From assembly GCF_016888165.1 (NCBI RefSeq), contig NZ_JACSWC010000429.1, forward strand, positions 1 through 38,914: a stretch of 38,914 nt of DNA, read 5' to 3'. Positions 3,904-27,853 of the stretch are shown here, piece after piece. Origin of the DNA: Halomicronema sp. CCY15110. GTDB taxonomy: Bacteria; Cyanobacteriota; Cyanobacteriia; Phormidesmidales; Phormidesmidaceae. How positions within the stretch are numbered: the first letter of the stretch is position 1; each line of letters begins with the position of its first letter. Below the pieces are notes generated by a model, which was given only the letters and a program-made list of their open reading frames with translations, made no database searches and had not been told where the DNA came from. The translations under genes were made by a program, and so were the position numbers.

Positions 3904-6444
3904 ATGGTGACGACTACAGCACACGATCGCCTGATCTGGTTACAAGAGCGATCTGCTCTCAATGTCTTGAGTCCTGACACCTTAGCGGTCCTGAGTGAGC
4001 ATCTTGAGCCCCGTTCTCTGCCGCCGCATCAACCCGTGGTGATGGCCGACACTCCACCAGACGGGCTTTACATCTTGATTGCGGGGCGATTGGAGCATAA
4101 GCCCGGTGTGCGCAGCCCGATGAGTTTTTTGCCGGGAGCCGTGTTAAATCTGCGATCGCTGCTCCTGGGCGAATCCGTCGAAAGCACCATCTTGACTCTG
4201 AGTCACTGTCAGTTTTGGTTCTTGCCAGCGGCGACGGTGCAGCAGTTAAAGGCGGACTATCCCGAAATCATGCAGTTGTTTTCGCAACGCATTGCCGCAG
4301 AATTACGACAAGTCGCCTCCCAACTGAACTATGAACAAGAACGTCAGGACATTTTGCGCCCCTACTTGGTGACCAAAGCGCGGCGCGGGGTGATTGGCCG
4401 CAGTCGCTATGCCCAGAGGCTCCGGCAGCAAATTCGCGATGCGTTCAAAAACTGTCCAGACGCCTGTGGTTCGGTGCTGGTGTTTGGTGAGCCGGGCACC
4501 GAAAAAGATAATATTGCTGCGCTCATTCATTACGGGTCGGCCTATCGGCGGCAACCTATCATCAAGGTCGATTGCGCCCGTCTGCAAGCGAGTGGAGCAG
4601 AGCTATTTGGCCGTGTGGGGGGGAAGCCTGGACTGCTGGAAGCGCTCGGCCAGGGCACGCTGATTCTTAACAACGTCGAAGAGTTGCCGAAGAGTTTGGT
4701 CGGGGCGATCGCGCAACTGCTGACCCAGCAGACGTATCGCCCAATTAGCCGCGATCGCGATGAATCAGCCCCAGAGCGCCCCAGTAGCGCCCACATCATT
4801 CTCATTTCCGAGCGTCCCATCGCTGCTGTAGACAAAGTAGTTGACACTCAGATCAAAGTGCCGCCCCTGCGCGTGCGCAAAGCGGACATCGAAGATTACG
4901 TCAATTACTACATCAGCTTGATCAGCCGTGCCCGGGGGCAACAGAAGATTTCAGTGACTCCAGAAGCGATTCGTCGGTTACAAGCCTATGACTTTCCCAA
5001 CAATCTGCGAGAGCTGGAGAGCTTGGTTACTCGGGCGTTGTCGCAGGTTGCCCCCGATTGCGTCTTGACCGAAGAAATTCTCTGGCCGTCCCAGAGCAAA
5101 AAGAAACAGTTCCGCCTGAATCTGCTGAATGCCTATCCCGCCCTCAGGCAATTTCTGCGGAGTCCGTGGTGGCCCGATCGCCTCAACTACGGCTTCACCC
5201 TGTCGGTATTTGCCTTGGTCAACATTGTGTTGTTTGTCGGCCCCCAAACCCGCGATCAAAACATCGCCCTCAGTCTGTTTTGGGTCTGGTGGTGGCCAGT
5301 GATCTTGCTCGTGTTTCCCTTTTTGGGGCGGGTCTGGTGTGCGGTTTGCCCGTTCATGATTTACGGTGAATTGCTGCAAACCCTCTCGCTCAAGCTGTGG
5401 CCTCGCCAGTTAAAACGCTGGCCCCGCGAAGCCGGTGAGCGTTGGGGCGGCTGGTTTCTCTTTGGCCTCTTTGCCTTGATTTTGTTGTGGGAAGAGCTAT
5501 GGGATTTGCAGAACACGGCGTATTTGTCGTCCTGTTTGTTGCTGCTGATTACGGCAGGAGCGATCGTGTTTTCCCAAATTTTTGAACGGCGGTTTTGGTG
5601 TCGCTACCTCTGCCCCATCGGCGGCATGAATGGGCTGTACGCCAAGCTCTCGATGACCGAACTGCGGGCGCAGCAGGGCACCTGCTCAGCGGAATGCACC
5701 ACCTATCAGTGTTACAAAGGCGGCCCCGCCAAGGGGGAAGGGCAGGAAACCGGGGGTTGTCCGATCTACTCGCATCCGGCACAACTGGAGGAAAATCGCG
5801 ATTGTGTGTTGTGCATGACCTGTCTTAAGGCCTGTCCCCATCGCTCGGTGGAATTTAATCTGCGCCCTCCCGGCATCGAACTGTGGACCACCCACACGCC
5901 CCGCGCCCATGAAGTCGCGTTGCTGTTCCTACTGTTGGATGCGGTTTTTCTCCATCGCTTACCGGAACTTTTAACGGCTGTGGGATGGACTGTGGATTTG
6001 ACCAACGGTTGGATTCACGCGGGGGTCGCGATCGCCCTCCTCACCCTGCCCGCATTGCTACCCTTGGCGGCCCAAGGCGGACTCCACCTCATTCACCAAC
6101 TGGCTCGCACCCGCAAACCGCGACCGTTCACCGAGCTGGCCTACGGCTATTTGCCCCTAGTGCTAATGGGCACCCTGGCCCACTATTTGCACCTGTTTCT
6201 GAACGAAGCGGGGCGAGCCTTGCCCGTGAGCGCTGCCACCATCGGCCTGTCAGGGATGAATTTGCCCGTGGTCGTCGCGCATCCCGCAGTAGTGGCCTTT
6301 TTGCAAGGCACCTCGCTGTTGGCAGGGGCGGGGTTAGCGATCGTGCTGACTCAAAAAATTGCCCGGTATCCCCTGCGGTTACTGTTGCCTCAGCACCTGG
6401 CCACTCTGGCGTTGACGGCAGCGCTGTGGCGGCTCATGGTGTAG
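3904..6444 (+). CDS. Fusion protein: cNMP-binding domain, degenerate bEBP-type AAA+ domain, NapH-like Fe-S membrane module
   Basis: An 846-residue protein with three modules. Residues about 20-140 look like a cyclic-nucleotide-binding (Crp-type) sensor domain. Residues about 160-395 resemble the AAA+ domain of sigma-54 activators: GRS at 165, Walker-A-like GEPGTEKD (195-202), AELFG, PPLRVRKADIED (320-331) and FPNNLRELE (364-372). The GAFTGA loop that contacts sigma-54 is absent between ELFG and GLLEAL. The Walker B region reads GTLILNNVEE instead of the usual LDE. There is no DNA-binding HTH. Residues about 425-846 hold several membrane segments and NapH/NosR-like cysteines: WCAVCP (C479, C482), FWCRYLCP (C566, C570), C594, C598, C603, C619, and a ferredoxin-type cluster site C634-x2-C637-x2-C640-x3-C644-P. 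It is likely a redox membrane protein with a sensory front end. Its partner and electron donor are unknown. The gene appears monocistronic. Confidence 0.8.
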   Translation: MVTTTAHDRLIWLQERSALNVLSPDTLAVLSEHLEPRSLPPHQPVVMADTPPDGLYILIAGRLEHKPGVRSPMSFLPGAVLNLRSLLLGESVESTILTLSHCQFWFLPAATVQQLKADYPEIMQLFSQRIAAELRQVASQLNYEQERQDILRPYLVTKARRGVIGRSRYAQRLRQQIRDAFKNCPDACGSVLVFGEPGTEKDNIAALIHYGSAYRRQPIIKVDCARLQASGAELFGRVGGKPGLLEALGQGTLILNNVEELPKSLVGAIAQLLTQQTYRPISRDRDESAPERPSSAHIILISERPIAAVDKVVDTQIKVPPLRVRKADIEDYVNYYISLISRARGQQKISVTPEAIRRLQAYDFPNNLRELESLVTRALSQVAPDCVLTEEILWPSQSKKKQFRLNLLNAYPALRQFLRSPWWPDRLNYGFTLSVFALVNIVLFVGPQTRDQNIALSLFWVWWWPVILLVFPFLGRVWCAVCPFMIYGELLQTLSLKLWPRQLKRWPREAGERWGGWFLFGLFALILLWEELWDLQNTAYLSSCLLLLITAGAIVFSQIFERRFWCRYLCPIGGMNGLYAKLSMTELRAQQGTCSAECTTYQCYKGGPAKGEGQETGGCPIYSHPAQLEENRDCVLCMTCLKACPHRSVEFNLRPPGIELWTTHTPRAHEVALLFLLLDAVFLHRLPELLTAVGWTVDLTNGWIHAGVAIALLTLPALLPLAAQGGLHLIHQLARTRKPRPFTELAYGYLPLVLMGTLAHYLHLFLNEAGRALPVSAATIGLSGMNLPVVVAHPAVVAFLQGTSLLAGAGLAIVLTQKIARYPLRLLLPQHLATLALTAALWRLMV

Positions 6445-13117: not shown

Positions 13118-16100
13118 TCAAACGGCGACCAATTGCGCAATCAGGGGTTCAGCCAACGATTGCTGTTTGTCTTGCATGAGCCGGGTTAGGTGCTCGCGAA
13201 GGCGATCTCGCTGGGCGGCATTCACCATATAAATATTGCGGGTTTGCTGAGTAAAGAGACTCCCCGCCGCGAGGTCTTGATAGGTGCGATTCGTCCGGGT
13301 ATCGCGGCTCAGCAATTCGCGAGTCGCCAGATCGGGCAACAGGCCGGGGGGCAAATGCCCTTCCAGAATCGCGACAATGCGCGACTGGCAAGCCGAGACG
13401 TTGAGGCCTTGGGCTTCGAGCAGGTGCAAAATGCCATCCAACGGCAGCGGCGCATCGGGAATGACCCGCATCATCTCATGCAGCAAAAAGTAATCGCTGT
13501 ATTGGTGCCGGGGCACATCCAAAATCTGCGGATAGCGGCACAAATTGACCAAGCCATAGGCGACCCGGCTACAGGTTTGGGGCCGATTGCTGGGATAGGT
13601 ATCTTGAATGATCGTGGCGTTGGGAAACTTTTGCCGCAGCCACTTGGCAATCGTGCCAAAAGAAGCGTTGCCCCCAGTGCAGATCACCTGATTGATGCCC
13701 TGGGAGGCGAGCCCCGTTTGGCTCAGCAGCGCATTCATCTGTTGGTTGATGCGCTGAATGTAGGGCACCAGTACCCGACTTTCCAGGTCACGTCGCAGCA
13801 CTCGCCAAGACTGATCTGCCAGTTCTAGTTGGTATTGATTTTGATGTTGCAAAATCAATTTCAGATAACGGGCGGCTTCCAGCAAGCTCTGCCCCAGGGG
13901 AGACGATTCGAGGTGCTGGCGCAACCGTTGCCGGAGTCCCGCATCAGGTTCTGCCAAACGGGGCAGGTCAATGCCGTCGAGTTGCAAGTCGGCCCACTTC
14001 GCATTGGCGACCTCGGGCAAGGCGGCCTGCCAGCCCCAGCCCCGATTGGGCGATCGCCGACTGCCAGCATTCAGCGTTTGACGGCGCTCTGACGGCAGTA
14101 ATAACTGACAAATAATGTCCAGATCTAAGGCATCGCCCCCGTAGGCCAAATTGCGTAACTTAAAGTCTTCGCGACTGACGGTATCGAGTGGTTGGGGCAA
14201 ATCGACAATGCCCACCTCGGTGCAGGCTGCGCCACTGCCAATCATGACGGTGCCGCCTTGCCAGTGACATTGATACAGGGCTTGGGCGGATCGATTGGCG
14301 GTGGGGGCGGGTTCGCTTGGGTCAGGCAACCCGGAGAGCAGGGCCGCGATCGCTTCTTCCACAAAAAAGACCTGACCAGCCGCCTCAACGAGGCCCGCAG
14401 CGAGGACGGCCTCTCGCAGGTTGAAACAATAGGTGTCCGACCAATGGGTCGGCAAGCCCATCACGACGCCCTGCAAGTTAGCCAAGACGCCAGCGAGGGT
14501 TTCCGGTTCCAGCCCGATCGCGGTGAGCTGTAGCTCTGCACTCTCGGGATGGCTGACCAACTCTAACAGGGCCGTGACTGTAGACACCACCTGCTGGAGG
14601 GGGAGCGTTTCGGCGTCTGACCATTGCACCCGAGGGATCGCCAGGCCAGCGCTGTCGTGGTGGGGAATGCCTGCCCGCAACAAGGGTCGCAAGGTATGCA
14701 AAAGCCGCTGGTCTGAGGCCGTGGCCGCTGGCGTCGCGGCGGCTGGCCCCACGGACAGCAACTCGAACGGGGCATCGCCAGCCAGGGCGGCGGTCGGCAG
14801 CGTGGCTACCGTCGGGATGCGGAAGGTGGCGACCGTATCGGCGGATGCGTTGGCGGGGACCCAACAAAGGGGATGCGCCGAGCCGCTGTGATGCTCCATC
14901 AGCACGGCGGACAAGCCACTGGTGCCCAGGTCAATGCCGAGAAACCATTCTTCGTCGGGCTCGTCGTCGTCATCTGGCAGGGTTGCCTCAGGCTCGTCGC
15001 CCAGAGTGGCTAGCCGACCTGAAGAGGCAAACACGGGGTCTTCAGTCGGGGGAACGGCAGGGGGGGCAGGCGTGGCTGTGGGTTCTGCCTCTTGAGGCTC
15101 AATCGAGGGCGCTGCGGGGGCCGTTTCCCGAGCAGTCGGCAGGATTTCTTGATCAGTGGTGAGGGCGTCGAGATCAGCGATCGCCGCCGCCGATAAAAAC
15201 TCGTCGTCCGCCTCGGAGCGATCGCCCGCTGACATGGCATCGTCAAAGGCGAACTGAAACGCCGCATCGGTGGCAATATCTTCCTCGGGAATCTCTTCCA
15301 TCGAGAGGTCTAGAGATTCTAGGGTCTGGCTGAGTTCTCGGTCATCCTGATTGGTTGCCCCGGCCTCGGCCGTCGCCGCATCGGGTGCGGTCGGGGGGCG
15401 ATCGGCGGCGACGTCATCCGGTTCCTCAGTCATGGGCAATTCCGGCCTGGATGATTCCGGGGCCGATAGGGCGTCCTCTCGGGTGGCGTCGTTGCTGGGG
15501 GCCGCTAAATCGGCAGCCGTGGGCTCATCAGCGGGCAAACCGCCCTCATCGGCGACGGATGGTTCTGACAAATCCGGGGCATCCAGATCGGCAGCACTGG
15601 CGACATCGATGGCGCTCGCCTCGGGGGGAAACAGGGTCGCCAGTTCGTCATCCGTTAGGGGAGCCGATGCCTCAGGGCCATCCCCAGTCTCGGAGCCGGA
15701 GCGGGCTAAGTCTATCGTTTCGGCCTCCGGTCCCGTCTCAGGGTCGCTGTCCGCCGCCAATGTGGGCCAGAGCAGTGCCGCCAGGGAGGGCGCATCCGGC
15801 CCGACGATCGCAAACCCCTCTTCGACGGATCCCGTCAATGACAAGGCGGACTCGGTGGGTCTTGCCGCCGGACTTGTCGGCGCTCCAGAGGCCGCAGCGC
15901 GGGCGGGCGACACGGGGGCATCGGGGTCAGGAATCGTCAGATTTGAGAGATCCGCCCCGGTGGAAAAGGGCAGCGACGTCGCTGCCACCATGCCTTGCCA
16001 CGAGGTCAGTCGCCGACCATATTCGCGTTGTAGTTGACTCGAGTCAGGCGCATCGTCAGCATCGTCAGTAAACGCTGCCACAGTCGTTTCTGGCGCATCG

Positions 16101-19100
16101 ATCAAGGCGCGATCGATCGCTGCGTCAGACGGAGCTGCGGCAAAGCTGAGCTGATAGCCATCGGTAATGGAGCCGCTGACCGTGCTCTCGGGCTCAGGTC
16201 GGGGGGAATCAGGCGGAACGAGGGGCTGACCGGTAGCGCTCTCCAGCTCTGGCAGGGTGGCTAGCGCTTGCCTGAGCGCCTCACTGGGCGCGTCGGAAAC
16301 AATTTGTAGACCGTCGTCCGCCGTGGTTGCGATCGCTAACTCCGATGGGGTTGGTTCCGGCGTCGCTGCCGCCCCGGTCTCTGGCGGTGGCGAGTCAAGC
16401 ATGGGGGCCGTATCCTCGGCTCCCGGTGGCACCGAGGGCGAGTCGGGGTCGGAGAGTTCGGCAAATCGGTCTGCGGCTGAGGTCGGCAATTCCGGTGCCA
16501 CAGTGGACGCTTTGGCCCCAAGGGAAGCCGCGTCATCAACGGGGGCATCCGGCAGGCGATCGCTGGGCTCATCCAGCGGCGGCCCGCCCAAGTCAGGCGA
16601 GTCGGCAAATAAATCTTCTACGGATGCGGTCTCTGGCTCCTCAGGTTTGGTGGCGGGCACATCGAATTCGGAATCAGCGGCCAAGTCTCCGCCCAGGCTC
16701 CCAAAGTCCAAGCGATCGTCCCCTGCGGGCGGGCCGCTGGGAACGTCGTCCAGGGCGGTGCCCCAAGTTTCCAGGGAAACGTCATCGGCGATGGGGGCGA
16801 TGTCGTCAGGCACATCCCCCAGCTCTAGCTCATCAACCAGCTGATCCGGGGCGATCGCGGCCCCCTCAGGCTTAGTCGCAGTTTCGTCTTCCCCGCCAAA
16901 GAGGTCGGCCTCTAGGGTTAACTCTGGCGAGATTTCATCATCGTTTGCATCCACCACTCCCAGGTCAAGGCCAATGTCATCCACGGTCAGGAACGGGTCT
17001 GTTATGGGCGGCACTGGCTCTGAGGATGTGCGGGGCTCGTCGGGAATTAAATTGGGCGCGGGTGAGGGCTCCAATGGCGAGCTCGATACGGCGGCGGCAA
17101 AATCGTCCAGGGTGGCATTGTCAGTAGTTGCCTCGGCAGGTGCCGCTGGGGCAACCTCACCAAAGGCGTTCTCTAAGCTGAAGTCAGCGGCACTATCCGG
17201 CGCGGCCGCGACCTCGTCAGCTTCGCCAAAGGCACTCTCCAGCGTCAACCCAGGGTCGTCTTTGCGGGCATCACTGCGATCTCCCGTATCCCCAAAGACA
17301 TCCCCCAAAGTCAGGCTTGGCCCGTCGTCAACTGACTCGTCGGCCTCACCAAAAGCATCCTCCAGAGTGAAACCAGGGGAAGCAACTTCGGGATCTTCAA
17401 CATCACCAAAAGCATCCTCCAGAGTGAAGCCAGGGGAAGAAGCTTCGGGATCTTCAACATCACCAAAAGCATCCTCCAGAGTGAAGCCAGGGGAAGAAGC
17501 TTCGGGTTCTTCGGCTTCCCCAAAGGCATCCTCCAGGGTGAAGCCAGGGGAAGAAGCTTCGGGTTCTTCAGCCTTGCCAAAAGCGTCGTCAAGTGTGAAG
17601 CCAGGGTCGCGATCGCTGGATCCTTCAACATCACCAAAAGCGTCATCGAGCGTGAAGCCAGGGGAAGCAACTTCGGGAGCTTCGGCATCGCCAAAAGCGT
17701 CGTCAAGCGTGAAGTCGGGGGCGCGATCGCTCACCTCTTTGGCCTCCCCAAAGGCATCCTCCAGAGTCAAGTCGGGCGCTAGATCGTCTGCTGCTTCCGC
17801 GTCATCAAACGCACTTTCGAGGGTCAGGTCAGCGTCGCTACTGTCCGCAGCGGCTTCGAACAACGTGGACATTGTGACTGCCGACTCTGGCGATTCGGAC
17901 ACATCCGCGATGTCGGATGAGTTGCCTGTATCCTTCTGGGAAGCATCGTCCCCCAGCCCCGAACTGATGTCGTCAACTGCGGGCGGGGCGGCGAGCTCAT
18001 CAAAAAAACTGTCGAGAGACCAGGACTCAGCGGTGGCTGGCGGCTCTGTCACCGCTGGCGAGGCAGTGCTGCTAGGGGCATCGCTGTTAAAAAAATCCTC
18101 TAATGAAGCCTCTGCATCGGGGGTGTCTGAGTCCGTCGCTGGATTGTCTGGGAAGTCCAGCAGGCTGTCTGAGGCTTCGGGTGCTTGGGGGCGATCGCTC
18201 TGGCTCCCCGACCCCAGGGGCGGCTCGTCAAACAGTTCCAACTCATCTAAATCAAGTCGCGGCAGGATGTCATCTTCGCCGTCATTCTCCGCAGCCTCAC
18301 TGGCGCTTTCCAACTCAAATAACAGCGGGTTGTCGTCAGCGGTGCTCTCATCACCCACGTCAGCACTATCCGCAGGGGGAACGACAGCGGCGTCACTCGG
18401 TTTTTCGGCGTCAGGGGAGGGCTCAGCGGCCTCCGGGAGCAGCTCAGCGGTCAATGCGCGATCGTCGAGCTCGTCGGTGGCATCCGTTTCGCCAAATAAT
18501 GCCGTCAGTTCCAGGTCAGCATCAAGATTGAAATCCGCTGATTCCTCCGCCGATTCTGTGGGGGAGTCGTCCGCCTCCAGCAACAGCTGGTCTTCAGCGG
18601 TCGTCATCACTTCCGAATCGCGATCGCCCGCCCATGCCTCATCTCCATCCTCGAAGTCGCTCTGCATATCGGTGGATGGCGGAGCGGCATTCTCAGGTGC
18701 GGCGGGGGGCGCGGCGGGTTCGTCGCTAGCCTCGTCAAATAACTCGGCAAAGAGCTCCTCTTCTGCTGCTTCCAGCTGATCGGCGGCGGCTGACACCGTC
18801 TCGTCCATCTCTAATGCTGTGAAGTCAAAGGAATCAGCGGCGGCGGCATGGCTCGCAGCCGACGCGGACTCGCTCGTGGGGGCGGTTGCCGAGGCATCGA
18901 GGGCGTCCGGCTCTAGTTCCGAAAACTCTGGAACGATGGCGTCTTGAGGCGCGTCATCGAGTTCTAGGGATTCACTTAACTGCGCGGCTGCCAGGGTTTC
19001 GTCCGGGGTACTTCCCTCTAACCGCGACAAGTCGGTGGACAACATCCCAAAGGTGTCATCGTCCAGGTTGAGATCCACCTGCGGTCGGGCAACTTCCCGT

Positions 19101-20860
19101 TCTGTGTCCAGCAGGTTTTCATCGGGGGAAGCTGGGATGAAGGTATCAGCAGTTTCTTCAAAAGTGGCAAAGGGATCCGGCTGCCGCTGCTGCTCCGACT
19201 CCGGCAACAGTTCCGTCAGAGACGTGATCGTGTCGCTGAGAGACGTGCCAGCCGTTTCACCTGGCGACAGCTCAGCGGCCATTTCCGAACCTAGCAATGC
19301 TTCTAAGGGCGGCTCATCCGGGGGAGTTGCCGTCATATCGGTGTCGGCAACGGGCTCAGCTGCTTCCAACAGGAAATCCAGATCTAAAGAGGTGTCGTTC
19401 GCTGCGGACAAGGGCGGCTCCGTGTCAGAGGTGGCGGGCTCAGCGATCGCCGCCTCAGGGGCACTGTCGTCCACCGCTGACGTATCGGCCAGCCGCAGCT
19501 GCTCATCGACCGTCGCCTCCACCGCATCACTGGGAGCCACCGGCGTTGTCGAATCGGGGGCTACGGCATCAGGCGCTGCGACGACCCCAAATAAATTGTC
19601 ATACAGCGCATCGATTTCTTCGGTATATGCCACGGTGGGCTCACCGTCGGTGGCCGTCTCGGCTTCAGCGTCATCATCAGCTTGTCCGGTGGCGACTTCC
19701 CAAGCAATGGGCTCGGTCTGCATGATGGTTTGGTCCTCGCGATCGCTCGCGAGTTCAGACCAGGCTGCATCCTCCTCTGCATCTGACCAGTCTTCAAATT
19801 CTTCATCGAGTTGAAACAACGTGACTTCTTCCTCCAGCGGGAAGTCATCATCCCCCTCAAACTCGCTCAAATCGTCTAATTCAACATCATCAAAATCAAC
19901 GACCGCATCCATCAAGTCATCCTGGGCGTCGATCGCTGAGTCATCCCCGTCATCCATCGAGTCGTCGATGTCTCCCTGGAGCCGCGCCAATTCTTGCTGA
20001 CTCGCGAGCTGCTCCGCCAGGGCGCTGCCTTCCGCTTGGAGCTGTTCGGCCAGATGGTTGATAAATGTCCGAAAAATGAATTCCCCTTGTTGGCCTAACC
20101 CATGCATGGCCCCTAAGCCCTGGTTCAGCGTGTCGCAATAGCTTTGGATGCTTTGATCCAGAGACTCAAACACGGCTCGCAGGTTGCCATCAAGCTTCAG
20201 CAACATCCCATCGGTTTGTGATTGAATTTGGCGCAATTGCTCTAGGCGCTGCTGTGGGCTGAGTTGGGGCAGCGACTCCGTCCCGGCGAGTCGATTTTGC
20301 TCCGGCGAAAAGGCTAATAGCGCCAGCTCATCCGGGGGAGCGCTGGGCAGAGCTTGTAGCTTCGGGGTCAAGTCGGCAATGAGGGACGATCGCAACTGGG
20401 TAACGACTTCATTCACCCATTCAGGACTGGGTTGCTGGGCTGCCGCCGCTCGCTGTAAGCGTTCTTGCTCTAGCTGCCGTACTTCATTTTTGAGCGTTTC
20501 GCGTTGCTGCTGTAGCGCAATCACTTCACTCGTCAGCGGTTGCACCATTTGCGCCCGCAAATACTGCATTTCTTGCAAGAGGGCCTGCAATACTTGCTGA
20601 CTCTCGGCGGTGGCCCCAGTCGCAGTCTCTGGGGTGGCTGATGTGGGAGCGATCGCCGCTCCCTGGCTAGCCACCAACCCCCACCCCGCATCCCCTGGAG
20701 TGGACTGTAATTCTTTCAGATAGTCCAGCGCCTGTCCCATGACGCGCCGCTGCTCACTGACTCCACCCGATCCCATCCAAGGCAACTTGGGCGCTGCTCG
20801 CCCCAGCAACGCTTCAATTTCAGTAATCAGTGCTTGTAGTTGCCCTTGTTGCGAAGTCAC
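13118..20860 (-). CDS. Giant protein: coiled coil, acidic disordered repeats, Hsp70-like ATPase domain
   Basis: One uninterrupted 2580-codon frame. The start is GTG at 20860, supported by AGGAG six bases upstream. Residues about 1-300 are Gln/Leu/Glu-rich with a probable coiled coil (about 85-145). Residues about 300-1960 are extremely rich in Asp, Glu, Ala, Ser and Pro and lack globular character. Within them (about 1009-1237) are twelve copies of a 19-residue repeat, typified by GFTLEDAFGEAEEPEASSP. From about 1970 an actin/Hsp70-fold nucleotide-binding domain begins: FLGIDLGTSG (phosphate 1, D1977), VEEAIAALLSG, the degenerate phosphate-2-like MIGSGAACTEVG, GGDALDLDII as in DnaK, and CTGGNASFG (adenosine motif, about 2395). 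No canonical substrate-binding domain follows, only a helical tail of about 150 residues. Likely a nucleotide-regulated cytoplasmic scaffold; partner and function are unknown. Confidence 0.8.
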   Translation of the reverse strand: MTSQQGQLQALITEIEALLGRAAPKLPWMGSGGVSEQRRVMGQALDYLKELQSTPGDAGWGLVASQGAAIAPTSATPETATGATAESQQVLQALLQEMQYLRAQMVQPLTSEVIALQQQRETLKNEVRQLEQERLQRAAAAQQPSPEWVNEVVTQLRSSLIADLTPKLQALPSAPPDELALLAFSPEQNRLAGTESLPQLSPQQRLEQLRQIQSQTDGMLLKLDGNLRAVFESLDQSIQSYCDTLNQGLGAMHGLGQQGEFIFRTFINHLAEQLQAEGSALAEQLASQQELARLQGDIDDSMDDGDDSAIDAQDDLMDAVVDFDDVELDDLSEFEGDDDFPLEEEVTLFQLDEEFEDWSDAEEDAAWSELASDREDQTIMQTEPIAWEVATGQADDDAEAETATDGEPTVAYTEEIDALYDNLFGVVAAPDAVAPDSTTPVAPSDAVEATVDEQLRLADTSAVDDSAPEAAIAEPATSDTEPPLSAANDTSLDLDFLLEAAEPVADTDMTATPPDEPPLEALLGSEMAAELSPGETAGTSLSDTITSLTELLPESEQQRQPDPFATFEETADTFIPASPDENLLDTEREVARPQVDLNLDDDTFGMLSTDLSRLEGSTPDETLAAAQLSESLELDDAPQDAIVPEFSELEPDALDASATAPTSESASAASHAAAADSFDFTALEMDETVSAAADQLEAAEEELFAELFDEASDEPAAPPAAPENAAPPSTDMQSDFEDGDEAWAGDRDSEVMTTAEDQLLLEADDSPTESAEESADFNLDADLELTALFGETDATDELDDRALTAELLPEAAEPSPDAEKPSDAAVVPPADSADVGDESTADDNPLLFELESASEAAENDGEDDILPRLDLDELELFDEPPLGSGSQSDRPQAPEASDSLLDFPDNPATDSDTPDAEASLEDFFNSDAPSSTASPAVTEPPATAESWSLDSFFDELAAPPAVDDISSGLGDDASQKDTGNSSDIADVSESPESAVTMSTLFEAAADSSDADLTLESAFDDAEAADDLAPDLTLEDAFGEAKEVSDRAPDFTLDDAFGDAEAPEVASPGFTLDDAFGDVEGSSDRDPGFTLDDAFGKAEEPEASSPGFTLEDAFGEAEEPEASSPGFTLEDAFGDVEDPEASSPGFTLEDAFGDVEDPEVASPGFTLEDAFGEADESVDDGPSLTLGDVFGDTGDRSDARKDDPGLTLESAFGEADEVAAAPDSAADFSLENAFGEVAPAAPAEATTDNATLDDFAAAVSSSPLEPSPAPNLIPDEPRTSSEPVPPITDPFLTVDDIGLDLGVVDANDDEISPELTLEADLFGGEDETATKPEGAAIAPDQLVDELELGDVPDDIAPIADDVSLETWGTALDDVPSGPPAGDDRLDFGSLGGDLAADSEFDVPATKPEEPETASVEDLFADSPDLGGPPLDEPSDRLPDAPVDDAASLGAKASTVAPELPTSAADRFAELSDPDSPSVPPGAEDTAPMLDSPPPETGAAATPEPTPSELAIATTADDGLQIVSDAPSEALRQALATLPELESATGQPLVPPDSPRPEPESTVSGSITDGYQLSFAAAPSDAAIDRALIDAPETTVAAFTDDADDAPDSSQLQREYGRRLTSWQGMVAATSLPFSTGADLSNLTIPDPDAPVSPARAAASGAPTSPAARPTESALSLTGSVEEGFAIVGPDAPSLAALLWPTLAADSDPETGPEAETIDLARSGSETGDGPEASAPLTDDELATLFPPEASAIDVASAADLDAPDLSEPSVADEGGLPADEPTAADLAAPSNDATREDALSAPESSRPELPMTEEPDDVAADRPPTAPDAATAEAGATNQDDRELSQTLESLDLSMEEIPEEDIATDAAFQFAFDDAMSAGDRSEADDEFLSAAAIADLDALTTDQEILPTARETAPAAPSIEPQEAEPTATPAPPAVPPTEDPVFASSGRLATLGDEPEATLPDDDDEPDEEWFLGIDLGTSGLSAVLMEHHSGSAHPLCWVPANASADTVATFRIPTVATLPTAALAGDAPFELLSVGPAAATPAATASDQRLLHTLRPLLRAGIPHHDSAGLAIPRVQWSDAETLPLQQVVSTVTALLELVSHPESAELQLTAIGLEPETLAGVLANLQGVVMGLPTHWSDTYCFNLREAVLAAGLVEAAGQVFFVEEAIAALLSGLPDPSEPAPTANRSAQALYQCHWQGGTVMIGSGAACTEVGIVDLPQPLDTVSREDFKLRNLAYGGDALDLDIICQLLLPSERRQTLNAGSRRSPNRGWGWQAALPEVANAKWADLQLDGIDLPRLAEPDAGLRQRLRQHLESSPLGQSLLEAARYLKLILQHQNQYQLELADQSWRVLRRDLESRVLVPYIQRINQQMNALLSQTGLASQGINQVICTGGNASFGTIAKWLRQKFPNATIIQDTYPSNRPQTCSRVAYGLVNLCRYPQILDVPRHQYSDYFLLHEMMRVIPDAPLPLDGILHLLEAQGLNVSACQSRIVAILEGHLPPGLLPDLATRELLSRDTRTNRTYQDLAAGSLFTQQTRNIYMVNAAQRDRLREHLTRLMQDKQQSLAEPLIAQLVAV
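17150..17835 (-). repeat. 57-bp tandem repeat array coding for a 19-residue motif (12 units)
   Basis: Twelve successive units of the pattern (F/L)(T/S)LE(D/S)AFG(E/D) plus an acidic spacer and Pro-Gly. The unit starts at 17356, 17413, 17470 and 17527 are exactly 57 bases apart. Those central units are nearly identical in DNA, whereas units at both edges have diverged. This gradient indicates recent unequal exchange or slippage in the middle of the array. Confidence 0.85.
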
Positions 20861-21501
20861 CGCGAACTCCTAAAAACCGACTGACTCAACTGCCCCCAAA
20901 CTATCGGGCGCAGGCCTGGATTGCAGGCTGGCCGGATGCCGCTGGCTTGAGTTAGGCCACCAGCAGATCCAGCAATTGCTCACTAGCATACTCATGACAC
21001 GAGTTTTCCTTTCAAAACCCAGGCTAGTTTGCCCAAAGTGTAGGACAGTCAGCCGGAATCTGTGAGGAATTGTTATGGCTCAGCAATGAATTCTTCGTAA
21101 TGGCCCCATAGAAGTCTGCGCTAGGGCGATTCATCACCAGCCTGACATCCGCCCCTGATGGATCCCGGAGGTCGCAACGCATCAGTTAATGTGAGTGATA
21201 TTTTAGGTGGACTATGGGAGAATACTAGCCCAAGGCAAGTTAGATAGGCTTTGATTTATGTGATGTATTGAGTGGGCGATCGCGGCTTGTCGCTAAGTGC
21301 AACGTTTCATCAAGGCATCATTACGGGTCAGACTTCAATCTTCATTGCCTCGACCAAGCCAGGAGTTTGGATGGAAATCGTATCACTCTATCGTGGATAG
21401 TCAAGTTTCATGGATAGCAGTCGCTATGGAGCCCGTGACCATGATGCTGCCGGATCAGCGCTCAGCACCACGCCCTTTTTGCCGGTTTACCCGCAGCCGC
21501 T
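20861..21501. other. Divergent intergenic region (giant gene / Crp-type regulator)
   Basis: About 640 bases without a convincing gene. Two short frames are open (one overlapping the regulator's start), but neither looks coding on its own. The last 60 bases probably encode the missing N-terminus of the regulator, out of frame with the available start codons. No full Crp-type palindrome TGTGA-N6-TCACA was found; only half-sites such as TGTGA at 21191 and 21260. Confidence 0.5.
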
Positions 21502-22116
21502 GTGCAGCAGGCAACCGCCCAGGCGGTCACGCGTCGTCATCCCGCTAATCAAGTCCTGTTGTTAGAAAATGACTGGGGCAGTTCTGTCTACTTCATTTTG
21601 GAAGGCTGGGTCAAAATCCGCACTTACAACTTGGATGGCAAAGAAATTACCCTCAACATCTTGGGCAAGGGGGAACTCTTTGGCGAAATGGCTCCGTTAG
21701 ACGAGGTGCCCCGCTCGACCGATGTGATGACCCTGGTGCCCACGGTGATCTGCAACCTCCCCGCCCAAGATTTTGTGCAACTGATCCAGACTGAGCCCCA
21801 GGCGGGCATTCGGTTATCGCAGTTAATGGCGCGTCGCCTGCGGCAAGTCAATCGGCGGTTGCGCTTGCGCGAATCCGACAGCACTTCTCGCGTCATCGAC
21901 ATTTTGTTGTTCTTGGCGGATGGTCAGGGGGTGGTGTCGCCCACCGGCACTGAAATTCCCAACTTGCCCCATCGCGAGCTCAGTAGCCTCAGCGGCTTGG
22001 CGCGAGAAACCGTGACTCGCGTATTGAATAAGCTAGAAAAGAAAGACCTGTTAAAACGCGATCGCGATATCATGCGCATCCCTGATATCGTGGCTCTGGA
22101 AAAGCTCTTGGTATAA
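21502..22116 (+). CDS. Crp/Fnr-family transcription regulator (SYCRP1-like)
   Basis: At least 204 residues, counted from the GTG at 21502. It has an N-terminal cyclic-nucleotide-binding beta-roll (about 10-105) with GELFGEMAPLDEVPRST, the phosphate-binding cassette in which E and R/S contact cAMP in Crp proteins. A dimerisation helix (about 110-140) follows, then a winged HTH (about 140-204) with HRELSSLSGLARETVTRVLNKL as recognition region. The FGEM...PRST pattern suggests real ligand binding. The sequence resembles the cyanobacterial cAMP receptor SYCRP1. Codons upstream of the GTG, back to a stop at 21442, read in frame as ...SAQHHALFAGLPAAA, which looks like genuine family N-terminus without a start codon; see findings. 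DUF2232 follows 9 bases downstream. Confidence 0.8.
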   Translation: MQQATAQAVTRRHPANQVLLLENDWGSSVYFILEGWVKIRTYNLDGKEITLNILGKGELFGEMAPLDEVPRSTDVMTLVPTVICNLPAQDFVQLIQTEPQAGIRLSQLMARRLRQVNRRLRLRESDSTSRVIDILLFLADGQGVVSPTGTEIPNLPHRELSSLSGLARETVTRVLNKLEKKDLLKRDRDIMRIPDIVALEKLLV

Positions 22117-22125
22117 CTTTTTGGC

Positions 22126-22923
22126 ATGGCTGAGTCGGCTTCAGACGCAACTCCCGATCCCGCGAATCCTCAATGGGGCGACCCCGCACCGCCGCCACAT
22201 CCTGATGAGTTTGACGCGGTTGAATCTTATCTCGACTATCGACCCACCGCCCAGGGGGAGAGCGATCGGCCGCTCCGGCGACCCACCGTTGGCCCTGCCG
22301 CCATGGTCGAAACAGCGTTTCTTGCCAGTGCGGCCAGCCTGATCTGGTTGGTGAATGCCTACTTTCCGCCGGGACCGCTGCTCCGGATTGTTTTTCCCCT
22401 GCCCATTGCGCTGGTGTACTTGCGCTGGGGCCACCGCGCCGCTTGGATGGCAGCCCTCGTTTCCACCATGCTGCTCGCTGTGCTCATGGGGCCTCCCCGC
22501 AGTTTGCTCTACCTCATGCCCTACGGTTTACTCGGCGTACAGCTGGGGTGGCTCTGGTATCGTGGGGCCTCTTGGTATATCTCTATTGGTATCGGCACGA
22601 TCCTGAATAGCTTGGGCTTTTTTGTGCGACTGTGGCTGCTTTCCCTCATGCTGGGCGAAGACCTGTGGGTCTATCTCATTAACCAAGCAACCCAGATGAT
22701 TAACTGGGTGTTATCTCGCCTGGTGAGCTTTGGTCTATTGTCAGTGGGCAGCCTGAGTCAATCGAATATGACTCTGGTGCAGTTAGTCGCCTTGCTGATT
22801 GTCATCGTCAGTTCCCTGGTCTACCTGTTCACAGTGCATTTGGCATCTTGGCTATTGCTCGAACGCTTGGGCGAAAAAATGCCTTCACCGCCACCCTGGG
22901 TGCAGCGATTACTCGAAACTTAG
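22126..22923 (+). CDS. DUF2232 family membrane protein
   Basis: A 265-residue protein with a Pro/Asp-rich cytoplasmic N-terminus (1-60) and six or so hydrophobic helices: about 62-80, 84-100, 105-122, 125-160, 165-178 and 215-240. The helices WLVNAYFPPGPLLRIVFPLPIALVY and the 'MPYGLLGVQLGWLWYRG' region are typical of DUF2232 (YybS-like) proteins, which resemble ECF-transporter S components in topology. Whether it transports anything is unknown. It starts 9 bases after the regulator gene and ends 11 bases before the CobT-like gene, so the three are probably one operon. Confidence 0.75.
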   Translation: MAESASDATPDPANPQWGDPAPPPHPDEFDAVESYLDYRPTAQGESDRPLRRPTVGPAAMVETAFLASAASLIWLVNAYFPPGPLLRIVFPLPIALVYLRWGHRAAWMAALVSTMLLAVLMGPPRSLLYLMPYGLLGVQLGWLWYRGASWYISIGIGTILNSLGFFVRLWLLSLMLGEDLWVYLINQATQMINWVLSRLVSFGLLSVGSLSQSNMTLVQLVALLIVIVSSLVYLFTVHLASWLLLERLGEKMPSPPPWVQRLLET

Positions 22924-22934
22924 GGGCTGCTCCG

Positions 22935-24068
22935 ATGAATCGTATCTACACCCAAACCCCCCAGGGACAACGCTGGTTGCGGCGCTATCGTGGGCATCGT
23001 CCCCGGCTAGCTTGTGTGTTGGGCTTTACCGAAACGGGTCTGATACCGGGTATTTCCGCCGCCGGAGCGACCCCTGACGATCGCCGCTTCACCGCGATCG
23101 CCGATGCCGAGTTTTTATGGCAAGGGCTCAAAGCACCTGCCCAATATCCCCTACCACCGCTCCTTGAGGGCGTATCACCAGTGCTCATTGCCCGTGCCAT
23201 TGTGGCGGCGCAGCTCATCCCAGTGATGATTTTTGACGCCGGGTTGCCCGTAGCGCCATCGGTACCCCACATTGAGTTGCCGGGACAGCCCGCCGCCTGC
23301 GTGAGTAGCGGCCAAGCGCTACCGCTCGCCGTAGTCGAACGGCTGTTTCGGCAAGGGCTGGCCTGGGGCCATCATTTGGGCAACCAGGTCGATTCGGACT
23401 ATGTGATTTTGGGGGAATGTGTGGTGGGGGGCACCACGACGGCGTTGGCTGTATTGCTGGGACTAGGCTTGCCCATCACCGACAAAATGGGTAGTAGCCA
23501 TGTCACCTGCAATCACGCCCAAAAACAGGCGATCGCTAACCAGGGGCTCGCCCGCTGGCGCGCCGCGATCGCCACAGACGCCACAGCAGTGTCCCCCCTG
23601 GCCCTGGTGGCCGCCGTCGGCGACCCGATGCAAGTGGTCGTTGCTGCGATGGCCATTGGGGCCAGTTGCCACGGTGGGGTGATGCTGGCCGGGGGCACGC
23701 AGATGCTCGCTGTGTATGCCCTGGCGCGATCGCTGGCCCGAGCCTATCGGCTGTCATGGCAACCGGAAAGGGTGGTTGTGGGCACCACTCGCTGGGTCGC
23801 TGAAGATCCCACCTGCGATACCGTTGGCGTAGCAGAACTGGTGGGTGATGTGCCGTTAATCGCGACGGAGCTGTCGTTTGCGACCTCACGCTATGAGGCC
23901 CTGCGACGGTACGAAGCCGGGTTTGTGAAGGAAGGCGTTGCCGCTGGTGGGTGTGCGATCGCCGCTCATCTGTATCAGCACTGGCAGCAGCCACAGCTCT
24001 TGCACATCATCGAATCTCAGTACGAACAATTGCAACAGCAGCAGCAACCTGCTCCCGTCCCGTCTTGA
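22935..24068 (+). CDS. UPF0284 / CobT-like phosphoribosyltransferase family protein
   Basis: 377 residues from the ATG at 22935 (MNRIYTQTPQGQRWL). A longer frame would overlap DUF2232 by 76 bases and has no family support. The core resembles nicotinate-nucleotide:dimethylbenzimidazole phosphoribosyltransferase (CobT), in particular LGECVVGGTTTALAVLLGLG, the counterpart of CobT's GEMGIGNTT loop, and GGVMLAGGTQMLAVYAL. Cyanobacterial members of this UPF0284 (TIGR00303-type) group are thought to act in attaching the lower ligand of (pseudo)cobalamin; that activity is not shown by the sequence. The C-terminus ends in a poly-Gln tract (EQLQQQQQPAP). Last gene of the putative regulator-DUF2232-CobT-like operon. 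Confidence 0.75.
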   Translation: MNRIYTQTPQGQRWLRRYRGHRPRLACVLGFTETGLIPGISAAGATPDDRRFTAIADAEFLWQGLKAPAQYPLPPLLEGVSPVLIARAIVAAQLIPVMIFDAGLPVAPSVPHIELPGQPAACVSSGQALPLAVVERLFRQGLAWGHHLGNQVDSDYVILGECVVGGTTTALAVLLGLGLPITDKMGSSHVTCNHAQKQAIANQGLARWRAAIATDATAVSPLALVAAVGDPMQVVVAAMAIGASCHGGVMLAGGTQMLAVYALARSLARAYRLSWQPERVVVGTTRWVAEDPTCDTVGVAELVGDVPLIATELSFATSRYEALRRYEAGFVKEGVAAGGCAIAAHLYQHWQQPQLLHIIESQYEQLQQQQQPAPVPS

Positions 24069-25678: not shown

Positions 25679-27853
25679 ATGTCACGGGGATTTTCGCGGC
25701 GGCATTTTTTGCAAACGACGGGGGCAACCTTAGCGGCGCTGGGCTGGTCGCAAATAGACGTGATGCGGCAGGGCGATCGCTACGGTCGCGCTTGGGCGCA
25801 GTCGACTCCGCGAAAACTGGCGCTATTGGTCGGCATCAATGACTATCCGCAGGAGAGCCGCTTTGCCCCCTTAAATGGCTGCGTTAATGATGTCGAGCTG
25901 CAATATTTCCTCCTGGTACATCGCTTTGGCTTCAACCCGCGCGACATTGTCAAACTGACGGATCAACAGGCCACCCGTGAGAATATTCTCACTGCCTACG
26001 AAGAACATCTGATCAAACAGGCCCAACCCGGCGATGTCGTCGTGTTCCACTTTTCGGGCCACGGCTCCCGCGTACTCGACCCTGATCAAGACTTTGAAGA
26101 TGGCCTCAACAGCACCCTTGTGCCAGTCGATAGTCCCCTGCCAGCAGGGTTTCCCCGAGAGGGTGGGCCAGTGAACGACATTACTGGACACACGATGTTT
26201 CTGCTGGGCAGCGCCATGCCGACGGAAAACTACACGGTGGTGCTGGACAGTTGCCATTCCGGTGGGGCCAAGCGCGGTAACTTGACTATTCGATCGCGGG
26301 CGGGGGGCAGCGGCCTCACCATGAGTGATTCGGAGCTGGCCTATCAGGCGGACTGGCGATCACGCCTTGATTTGAGTCAGGCAGACTTCATTCAGCGGCG
26401 GCGGGCGGGCATTGCCAAAGGGGCCGCGATCGCCTCAACCCGGCGCGAGCAGTATGCCGCCGACGCCCCCTTCGATGATTTTTACGCGGGCGCTTTCACC
26501 TTTGTGCTCACCCAGTATCTGTGGCAGCAAACGGGAGAATCGCCTTTGACCGGAGCGATCGCCAACGTGGCCCGCACCACCACCGAGCTATCGTTTAGCA
26601 ATCAAGAACCGCAGTTCGAGACGCAACCCGGCAGCAACTTTGACAATCAGCCCCTGTATTTTGTCCCCAAAATCGCCACCCCAGCCGAAGCCGTCGTGAC
26701 CAACATCGCGGGTGGTGAAGTCGAAATGTGGCTGGGCGGCGTCGATCCCAACAGTTTGGAAGCCTTTGACGCGGGCGCTGTGCTCTCCAGTGTGGATGCT
26801 CGGGGACAAGCGCGGGGCCTGGTGCAACTCACGACCCGCAGCGGCCTGACCGGGCGCGGGCGGTTGATGGATGCGGATAGTTTGCCGTCTGGCTCACTGC
26901 TGCAAGAGCAGGTGCGCGGCATTCCCACCGATGTCAAATTACGCATTGGCTTAGACGAATCTTTAGGAGCTGAGGCCAACCGTGCCCGCGCAGCCTTAGA
27001 AACGATTCCTGGGGTCGAAGCCCTGGCCCTGGGGGGGGACGAGGTGCACTATATTTTCGGGCGCATGACCGCCGCCAATCGGCAGGAACTCGCGGGGCAG
27101 CCTCACCTACCGGCTGAGGGCGCGATCGGGTTATTTTCCCAAGGTTTGGATTTGGTGCCCAACGCCTATGGCAATGCCGGAGAATCGATCACGGCGGCCA
27201 TTGAGCGATTGCGGCCCAAACTGCGGTTGTTGCTGGCGGCGCGCACGGTCAAACTGGCGTTAAATCCAGGCACCTCTCGCCTCAATCTCAACGTGGCGAT
27301 GTTTGATGAAACGGGCAATCAAATTCTCGGCAAGGTCGTGGCAGTGCGCGGCGCGAATGCGGCTCCTGAACCCCGGCCCACCGTGCCGCAAATTGCGATC
27401 GGGCAGGGACTGCGGTTCGAGATTCAAAACCAAGAAGATCAAGACTTGTACTTGAGCGTGTTGGTGATTGATGCCGAGGGGATTATGTCGGTCATTTTTC
27501 CTAACCAGTGGACGGCCTCGATCGCGGCCACGCTGCTACCCGCCAGAACAACGTTGCAATTGCCCAAGCCCAGCGACAGCTTTCGCCTGGTAGCGCAAGC
27601 CCCGATCGGCACGACCGAGGTGTTAGTGGTGGCGAGCACGAATCCGCTGAATAACGCGCTGCAAGGATTACAGGCGATCGCGAACAATGTTGGCGTATCC
27701 CGTGGTCCCGTTGGTATCGAAGATCCCAATGAAGTCATTGATGGCTTATTGGCCGATATCAGTGATGGGACGCGGGGCACCGGCAACGCCACCACGCGAT
27801 CGATCAATGTCTCGCAACTCGCGGCGCTCTCCATCACCTTTGACACGATTTAG
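25679..27853 (+). CDS. Tat-exported caspase homologue (peptidase C14) with DUF4384-like C-terminus
   Basis: A 724-residue protein. The N-terminus has a twin-arginine signal (SRRHFLQTTGATLAALG, R7-R8), so the folded protein is predicted to reach the periplasm or lumen. The peptidase domain (about 45-330) begins KLALLVGINDYP. It carries the catalytic dyad H128 (HFSGHGS) and C192 (VVLDSCHSGG), as in active prokaryotic caspase homologues or metacaspases, which usually cut after Arg or Lys. Acidic D190 next to the Cys fits that specificity. The middle (about 335-530) is of unknown fold. The C-terminal part (about 535-690) resembles DUF4384, with LRFEIQNQEDQDLYLSVLVID and IMSVIFPNQW. AGAGGAA precedes the ATG. 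Substrates are unknown. Tat export of a caspase-like enzyme is notable but known from some cyanobacteria. Confidence 0.85.
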   Translation: MSRGFSRRHFLQTTGATLAALGWSQIDVMRQGDRYGRAWAQSTPRKLALLVGINDYPQESRFAPLNGCVNDVELQYFLLVHRFGFNPRDIVKLTDQQATRENILTAYEEHLIKQAQPGDVVVFHFSGHGSRVLDPDQDFEDGLNSTLVPVDSPLPAGFPREGGPVNDITGHTMFLLGSAMPTENYTVVLDSCHSGGAKRGNLTIRSRAGGSGLTMSDSELAYQADWRSRLDLSQADFIQRRRAGIAKGAAIASTRREQYAADAPFDDFYAGAFTFVLTQYLWQQTGESPLTGAIANVARTTTELSFSNQEPQFETQPGSNFDNQPLYFVPKIATPAEAVVTNIAGGEVEMWLGGVDPNSLEAFDAGAVLSSVDARGQARGLVQLTTRSGLTGRGRLMDADSLPSGSLLQEQVRGIPTDVKLRIGLDESLGAEANRARAALETIPGVEALALGGDEVHYIFGRMTAANRQELAGQPHLPAEGAIGLFSQGLDLVPNAYGNAGESITAAIERLRPKLRLLLAARTVKLALNPGTSRLNLNVAMFDETGNQILGKVVAVRGANAAPEPRPTVPQIAIGQGLRFEIQNQEDQDLYLSVLVIDAEGIMSVIFPNQWTASIAATLLPARTTLQLPKPSDSFRLVAQAPIGTTEVLVVASTNPLNNALQGLQAIANNVGVSRGPVGIEDPNEVIDGLLADISDGTRGTGNATTRSINVSQLAALSITFDTI

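Follow-up and report, generated by a model that had tools for sequence, protein, structure and literature searches.

A 2,580-residue cyanobacterial protein, encoded on the minus strand at 13118–20860 (GTG start, stop codon included), joins three parts: a coiled-coil head homologous by sequence to that of SepJ, a very long acidic chain, and a predicted Hsp70/actin-type nucleotide-binding domain. The gene and sepJ-like genes nearly always keep company in the same genomes. The window, i.e., the whole stretch of 38,914 nucleotides that was analysed, comes from a draft genome in 443 contigs. An earlier note, made from the letters of the window, had described the open reading frame, to which the strand is now added; the company of sepJ-like genes had escaped it. 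The gene is confirmed as real. It is more than a chance reading because it is one open frame, because its ends and its acidic middle recur across cyanobacteria, and because the middle is under purifying selection. Homologues share the order of the parts.

The head and the nucleotide-binding domain each have known relatives. Their combination was not found in a search of the open-access literature, nor was any description of such a protein (subscription papers and preprints lay outside the search). To judge from its sequence, the protein is a possible scaffold of bacterial multicellularity that has escaped study, and a scaffold, the idea of the earlier note, is our best guess too. No strongly hydrophobic 19-residue window is present anywhere in the 2,580 residues; the maximum hydrophobicity is 1.5, versus 2.2 in SepJ.

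The head and its relationship to SepJ

The head includes residues 1–300 (19961–20860, minus strand) and consists of an N-terminal helical part, conserved as MTSQ..QIQ.LI.EI, and a pair of coiled-coil helices. In the structural model of a Nostocales relative, L152 (1,200 residues, pTM 0.33), the head is two long helices with pLDDT of about 50–67. The coiled-coil that the earlier note had read here is thus supported; its type had been missed. Residues 80–284 (20009–20623, minus strand) form a SepJ-type coiled-coil, as indicated by profile alignment with its controls and by searches with a head profile. That is, hhalign of 45 heads against 31 SepJ-like coiled-coils (rows that include the same-genome duplicates L163/L182 and L166/L190) gave 99.7%, E 2.1e-26, over 185 columns, versus 1.8% for the reversed SepJ profile and 1.3% for another coiled-coil family of 14 members. 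By this comparison the head is homologous to the coiled-coil of SepJ.

A search of 292 cyanobacterial genomes with the head found a match in 66, many of which have a second matching protein too. The second match in the genome of the window is a 615-residue ORF (L161:7285–9132) made of a coiled-coil, a Pro-rich linker and an EamA permease. SepJ of Anabaena is described as having coiled-coils within residues 28–207, a linker at 208–401 and a membrane domain at 412–751 (PMC5623728), and the compared relative was taken as SepJ because it has this published layout. HmpF, a candidate from the literature for the identity of the head's relatives, was dropped, the second head-bearing protein being a coiled-coil joined to an EamA permease. 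At the Nostocales locus L162, a HetR gene (NCBIfam equivalog above cut-off) adjoins the SepJ-like gene; sepJ and hetR are neighbours in Anabaena, too. When the head profile was run on 10 genomes, the SepJ-like ORF was matched in nine, the exception being G185, with E-values of 7e-15 or better in seven genomes, 2.3e-14 in G129 and 5.5e-10 in G011. The same profile found no third strong match in four f7-family genomes (G074, G078, G199, and G284), where one further hit, a 556-residue ORF, had an E-value of 0.2.

The predicted nucleotide-binding tail

The tail extends from residue 1966 to 2580; among its named matches, the closest come from a Leptolyngbya MAG (78%) and, at 69%, two Halomicronema MAGs. 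Residues 1970–2448 (13517–14953, minus strand) are confidently predicted to be a nucleotide-binding domain of the Hsp70/actin type, based on the predicted structure and on residue conservation. An AlphaFold2 model of the tail built from 49 sequences has pLDDT 88.3 and pTM 0.91. Foldseek with this model ranks DnaK nucleotide-binding domains first, at E about 1e-12. In VIA-align, the best five DnaK rows have Z of 21.3–22.0 and rmsd of 3.3–3.9 Å over 346–370 residues (7rax, for example, 3.3 Å over 346 residues), and MreB follows at Z about 20 (8ab4, 3.2 Å over 296 residues), in agreement with the actin/Hsp70 fold that had been proposed for this end. Neither FtsA nor PilM is among the top 50 rows, a result that does not exclude either. 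At the level of profiles, the tail passes the cut-off of no profile library: a PF00012 search of the same genome finds six places, none inside the scaffold gene, and a Pfam scan of the gene returns a sub-cutoff PilM_2 match only and no EamA domain. An alignment profile of the tail touches DnaK at E 0.0023. The genome encodes three other full-length Hsp70 proteins, and the match of the tail profile to its own DnaK proteins is weak (42.5% probability, E 0.00026).

Conservation was read from two alignments: A3, in which the window protein is joined by 48 of the 80 named loci, and the wider A1, with 35 of 41 listed references (L071, L046, L047, L076, L045, and L074 were left out). Equivalences to DnaK were assigned by eye from motifs. 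On this basis, the P1 Asp is kept in all 49 rows of A3 and all 35 of A1. Lys/Arg94, matched to DnaK Lys70, is found in 49/49 rows of A3 (46 Lys and 3 Arg, the window protein having Arg) and 26/35 of A1; Glu204 in 46/49 and 25/35. The adenosine GG motif, Gly432-Gly433, is complete in 49/49 rows of A3, and Gly433 is kept in 26/35 of A1. Since the site is less conserved in A1, some family members may not bind nucleotide.

The altered phosphate-2 loop, MIGSGAACTEVG (residues 2206–2217; 14210–14245, minus strand), had been noticed before in the window protein, and the alignments indicate that it is a family trait, not a peculiarity of this protein. The position of the phosphate-2 Asp is replaced in 48 of the 49 rows of A3 (Ser 27, Asn 20, Gly 1, which is the window protein; Asp 1), and is Asp in 6/35 rows of A1. 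A loop altered family-wide suggests weak or no hydrolysis.

The domain is followed by a C-terminal extension of about 130 residues (residues 2449–2580; 13121–13516, minus strand). The best Pfam E-value of the window's piece is 0.35, which we take as chance. Pfam recognised no substrate-binding domain in the tail or in this extension, as the earlier note had also read it. Secondary structure gave the impression of a winged helix in the extension; Pfam gave no support and the assignment is not claimed.

MreB chains score close to DnaK (Z about 20, with some 296 residues aligned), so the protein might be a cytoskeletal one. That is, the C-terminal domain would polymerize with ATP like MreB or FcmB, with the head and chain tethering or spacing the filaments. 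FcmB is presented as a case of extra actin-like proteins being recruited by filamentous cyanobacteria (PMC12645912). We consider this reading unlikely. The best profile and structure matches are to Hsp70 nucleotide-binding domains, and the lost phosphate-2 Asp speaks against an active polymer cycle. FcmB itself is described as a relative of ParM with a partner, FcmC (PMC12645912), i.e., it is of another family, and identity with FcmB is rejected.

The acidic middle and its motifs

Residues 301–1965 (14966–19960, minus strand) form the very long acidic middle that had been described from the letters: 435 Asp and Glu versus 42 Lys and Arg, with zero Cys. Its assignment as disordered is based on composition and on the L152 model, where the equivalent region mostly has pLDDT of 22–36. 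We used L057, a same-genus relative of 2,608 residues, as the reference for dN/dS. Identity to L057 is 63% and 61% for the two segments of the middle, with dN/dS of 0.21 and 0.22; for the tandem array discussed below it is 51%, with dN/dS 0.16; and for the protein ends it is 88%, with dN/dS 0.08–0.09. With L077, no value could be computed for the middle, synonymous sites being saturated. Thus, the middle is translated and under purifying selection, whereas the earlier note had allowed that an untranslated middle would count against the scaffold.

Within the chain, a few short motifs are conserved. M1, DALYDNLF(G), is at residues 417–424 (19589–19612), M2, DTITSLTEL, at residues 543–551 (19208–19234), and the compound motif M3-M3b, FIPASPDENLL followed by FGMLSTDLSRLE, at residues 574–615 (19016–19141), all on the minus strand. 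The consensus forms are D.LY.SLFG; DTI..LT.LL; and [YF]IPASP.ENLL, then L..L..DL..L some 30 residues on. The motifs were counted in 45 of 98 middles, kept after discarding heads more than 60% identical, and compared with shuffled sequences, a contrast that is somewhat flattered because the patterns were derived from the same set of middles. The M1 pattern, D.[LIVFA]Y..[LF][FLA], occurs in 22/45 (0.05 in shuffles), M2 in 19 (0.75), M3 in 20 (0.9), and M3b, the sole motif present in over half, in 36 (4.0). Three or more motifs are held by 18/45 middles. Order and spacing are kept: M1 precedes M2 in 12/12 cases and M3 in 12/12, M2 precedes M3 in 12/13, and the M3-to-M3b distance is 29–32 residues in all 17 middles having both. 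An alignment of 31 of the named loci (A7) gives the same picture in its listed part, where LYASLFG is nearly invariant. The L152 model has a helix at M3b (pLDDT 49–65), the rest of the middle being mostly disorder. No confident docking of the chain motifs on the tail is seen in this weak model (pTM 0.33).

All the motifs named in the earlier note are present: LEDAFG at 1033, 1109, 1128, 1147, and 1166, LEDFF at 920, LDSFF at 949, VEDLFA at 1414, and LYDNLFG at 419. The picture of docking motifs scattered along the disordered part is not borne out in that form. LEDAFG-type motifs belong mostly to one lineage-specific tandem array with a 57-bp unit (17346–17771, minus strand; TRF), which encodes 19-residue FTLEDAFG-type repeats, and the conserved motifs are M1, M2 and M3-M3b. 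Counted in the window protein, the generic form [LIVM]..[ALIVF]F[GADES] has 16 occurrences versus 1.8 in shuffles; without residues 1001–1220 it occurs 4 times versus 1.4, and 21 of 500 shuffles reach 4. Wide conservation of the LEDAFG type is rejected: 67 occurrences over the 45 middles compare with 33.4 in shuffles, and 16 of the 67 are from the window protein. A DNA version of the M1 pattern was also looked for elsewhere. It gave 6 matches in 6 genomes versus 7 for the reversed control; three of the six were the scaffold gene family itself (G000, G170, and G074), and in the other three genomes the family gene was missed. No better than its control, the pattern suggests no partner protein.

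Activity might instead reside in the chain, which would trap basic partners as a polyanionic brush or by forming condensates, with the ends merely positioning it. Among fused relatives the middle ranges from 358 to 1,694 residues, and its net charge is nevertheless steady at −12 to −30 per 100 residues, which speaks for this reading. Seven loci (L045, L046, L048, L052, L067, L074, and L075) have a tail ORF and no long acidic chain, and conservation of motifs at fixed spacing argues for selection on more than charge. We therefore think it quite unlikely that charge is the main function.

The locus, the company of sepJ and function

Of the 71 tail-bearing genomes described below, 40 were examined with wide flanks. 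The three parts are fully fused at 15 loci (the head of L042, at E 2e-4, just missing the 1e-4 cut), and L046 is a short fused form. At 17 loci, head and middle are encoded together by a gene of their own, upstream of the tail gene and on its strand, at a distance of −128 to +149 nt by mechanically assigned start codons; the remaining seven have a tail without a recognised head gene. The earlier note had held that ends found as separate genes would tell against a single scaffold. Separate they are at 17/40 loci, yet the pieces lie adjacent and on the same strand. A quick tree of 35 tails requires 6 changes for the label "fused", of which the starred branches force at least 3. Several branches are long, so the deep order is unsure and no ancestral state is named. 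The adjacency of split genes and the repeated fusion or fission suggest that head, middle and tail work together. At L078, L117, and L124, head and tail are encoded by different ORFs, one of which also carries much of the chain; these splits may be draft or MAG assembly errors.

The neighbours fix the orthology of the locus and tell little about function. They are, all on the plus strand, a divergent CRP/FNR-family regulator (cluster c1; 21502–22116; in 30/40 loci), a DUF2232 membrane protein (c2; 22126–22923; 27/40) and a CobT-like protein (c3; TIGR00303, PRK04447.1-6; 22848–24068; 21/40). A sugar-transferase cluster, c5, its family named from the ORF that adjoins the head gene of L165, is found in 11/40 loci, and a PgsA-like cluster, so read by sequence, in 10/40. 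Several side observations concern the same region. In the CRP-family gene, an in-frame stop lies shortly upstream of the conserved region and the first ATG, GTG or TTG is at 21502 (21436–21502, plus strand), whereas relatives have about 235 residues; an unusual start codon, a sequence error or a real truncation may lie behind this. DevH is one candidate identity for the regulator. A small ORF of 161–186 residues (c9) adjoins the CRP gene in L039, L040, L051, L054, L066, and L073, and the L066 copy reads as a universal stress protein. Elsewhere in the window, an 846-residue ORF (3904–6444, plus strand) appears to be an odd fusion of a cyclic-nucleotide-binding domain, a sigma-54-type AAA domain and a polyferredoxin-like membrane part, and a 724-residue ORF (25679–27853, plus strand) looks like a caspase-family (metacaspase) protein with a twin-arginine-like N-terminus, both by their letters alone.

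The sugar-transferase neighbour, together with the Hsp70 fold of the tail, recalls the DnaK(Hsp70) system reported to link type IV pili and polysaccharide secretion in cyanobacteria (PMC9239167), with the DnaK1 form of which a divergent Hsp70 could act as chaperone or co-chaperone. The sugar transferase is far from universal, no substrate-binding domain is recognised, the phosphate-2 Asp is lost, and the genome already has its three full-length Hsp70 proteins; a chaperone is accordingly a doubtful reading, with a small share of the probability. DnaJ3 and GrpE are reportedly the partners of that DnaK system. It is very improbable that the protein serves the divergently transcribed CRP-family regulator, the most conserved neighbour at 30/40 loci, as a partner or sensor, since divergent promoters are common, no fusion with the regulator was noticed, and the regulator is missing from the fetched stretch at 10/40 loci.

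The tail was found at E ≤ 1e-5 in 71 of 292 cyanobacterial genomes. A SepJ query at E ≤ 1e-30 also matched 71, of which six were discarded as plain EamA transporters (ORFs of 317–360 residues) and 65 counted as SepJ-like; ORFs were counted from 423 residues up, most being classed by permease match and length, not by the coil. Both are present in 60 genomes, the tail only in 11, the SepJ-like gene only in 5, and neither in 216. That is, the tail is present in 60/65 SepJ-bearing genomes versus 11/227 others, with a Fisher p-value of 1e-44 that ignores shared ancestry. Because filamentous lineages share ancestry, co-occurrence is weakened as evidence for a tie to SepJ.

Among the five SepJ-only genomes, four have a head match (G185, G197, G229, and G289) and one, G051, has neither head nor tail. 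Three were inspected; each has a head-plus-middle gene (404, 676, and 913 residues) in a genome with no tail match, and one of these genes, L168, keeps M3 and M3b. From the 11 tail-only genomes, the loci of seven, i.e., those listed above as having no long acidic chain, were read. Their ORFs have 399–647 residues, some with a reduced head. A tail found without SepJ in 11 genomes, in short ORFs in the seven inspected, implies a role for the tail independent of SepJ. The gene of 585–647 residues at L048, L067, L052, and L075, which have no SepJ-like match, is a tail with a short N-terminal part, possibly a simpler form of the family.

In 2 of the 60 genomes, sepJ is about 6 kb from the scaffold genes, versus 0.3 such cases expected by chance (P about 0.04, a crude estimate); in the remaining 58, sepJ is on a different contig or at least 270 kb off. 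In G135, the order is tail, head, CRP, two ORFs of the size of DUF2232 and CobT, a 126-residue ORF, a 416-residue ORF, and sepJ, with 5.9 kb between sepJ and the head gene. The sepJ of G286 is 6.2 kb past the tail gene, on that gene's other side. The two sepJ-like genes (L230:15051–16928 and L231:14488–16338) are in distant genomes and on opposite sides of the locus. An ancestral neighbourhood shared by sepJ and the scaffold locus is possible.

We tentatively prefer, at somewhat less than even chances, a cytoplasmic scaffold of filamentous cyanobacteria that is allied to SepJ and has a nucleotide-switched tail. The scaffold would be tied to the cell-junction/divisome system of SepJ. Its SepJ-type head would form oligomers, of its own kind or perhaps mixed with SepJ; the long acidic chain would hold the parts apart while its few conserved motifs dock partners in trans; and the divergent Hsp70-type tail would bind ATP and serve as a switch that hydrolyses it slowly or not at all, without being a folding chaperone. 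According to one account, the coil of SepJ may be periplasmic (PMC12096826), in which case it would be kept apart from a cytoplasmic partner. A more specific and rather unlikely version is a septal cytoplasmic plaque, in which the protein would join SepJ by mixed coiled-coils, the tail would close on ATP, and the motif-bearing chain would recruit divisome or junction partners. If true, bacteria would have a counterpart of the plaque on the cytoplasmic side of animal junctions, derived from an Hsp70 domain turned switch.

SepJ is described as central to bacterial multicellularity, its role and the membrane side of its coil being debated (PMC12096826, PMC5623728). A soluble protein with a SepJ-homologous coil, found in nearly the same genomes and, in two of them, encoded just a few genes from sepJ, is a candidate partner of SepJ and bears on the question of its topology. 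Two further features give the protein wider interest: an Hsp70-type domain apparently turned from chaperone to switch, and a long disordered chain with just a few short motifs held fixed.

Compared with known systems, the tail shares with MreB the superfamily fold, and MreB matches slightly less well than DnaK. FcmB differs in being described as ParM-like and in having FcmC. With Hsp70/DnaK, the likeness includes the fold and, by motif reading, the P1 loop, the connect-1 Glu and the adenosine GG motif; in contrast to DnaK, the scaffold tail mostly lacks the phosphate-2 Asp, has an extra C-terminal part and falls below every curated cut-off. With SepJ (FraG), the protein shares the homologous coiled-coil (185 columns) followed by a long linker, and a nearly identical distribution among genomes. 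It differs in its acidic, motif-bearing chain and soluble Hsp70-type domain, where SepJ carries a linker rich in Pro, Ser and Thr and an EamA permease. SepI (Alr3364) is described as a coiled-coil with a linker-like domain and no permease that interacts with SepJ (PMC12096826). Going by the published descriptions, SepI is far shorter, at 521 residues (PMC12421839), and no ATPase domain is mentioned for it in the text available. SepI is a precedent for a SepJ-interacting protein that has a coiled-coil and lacks the permease.
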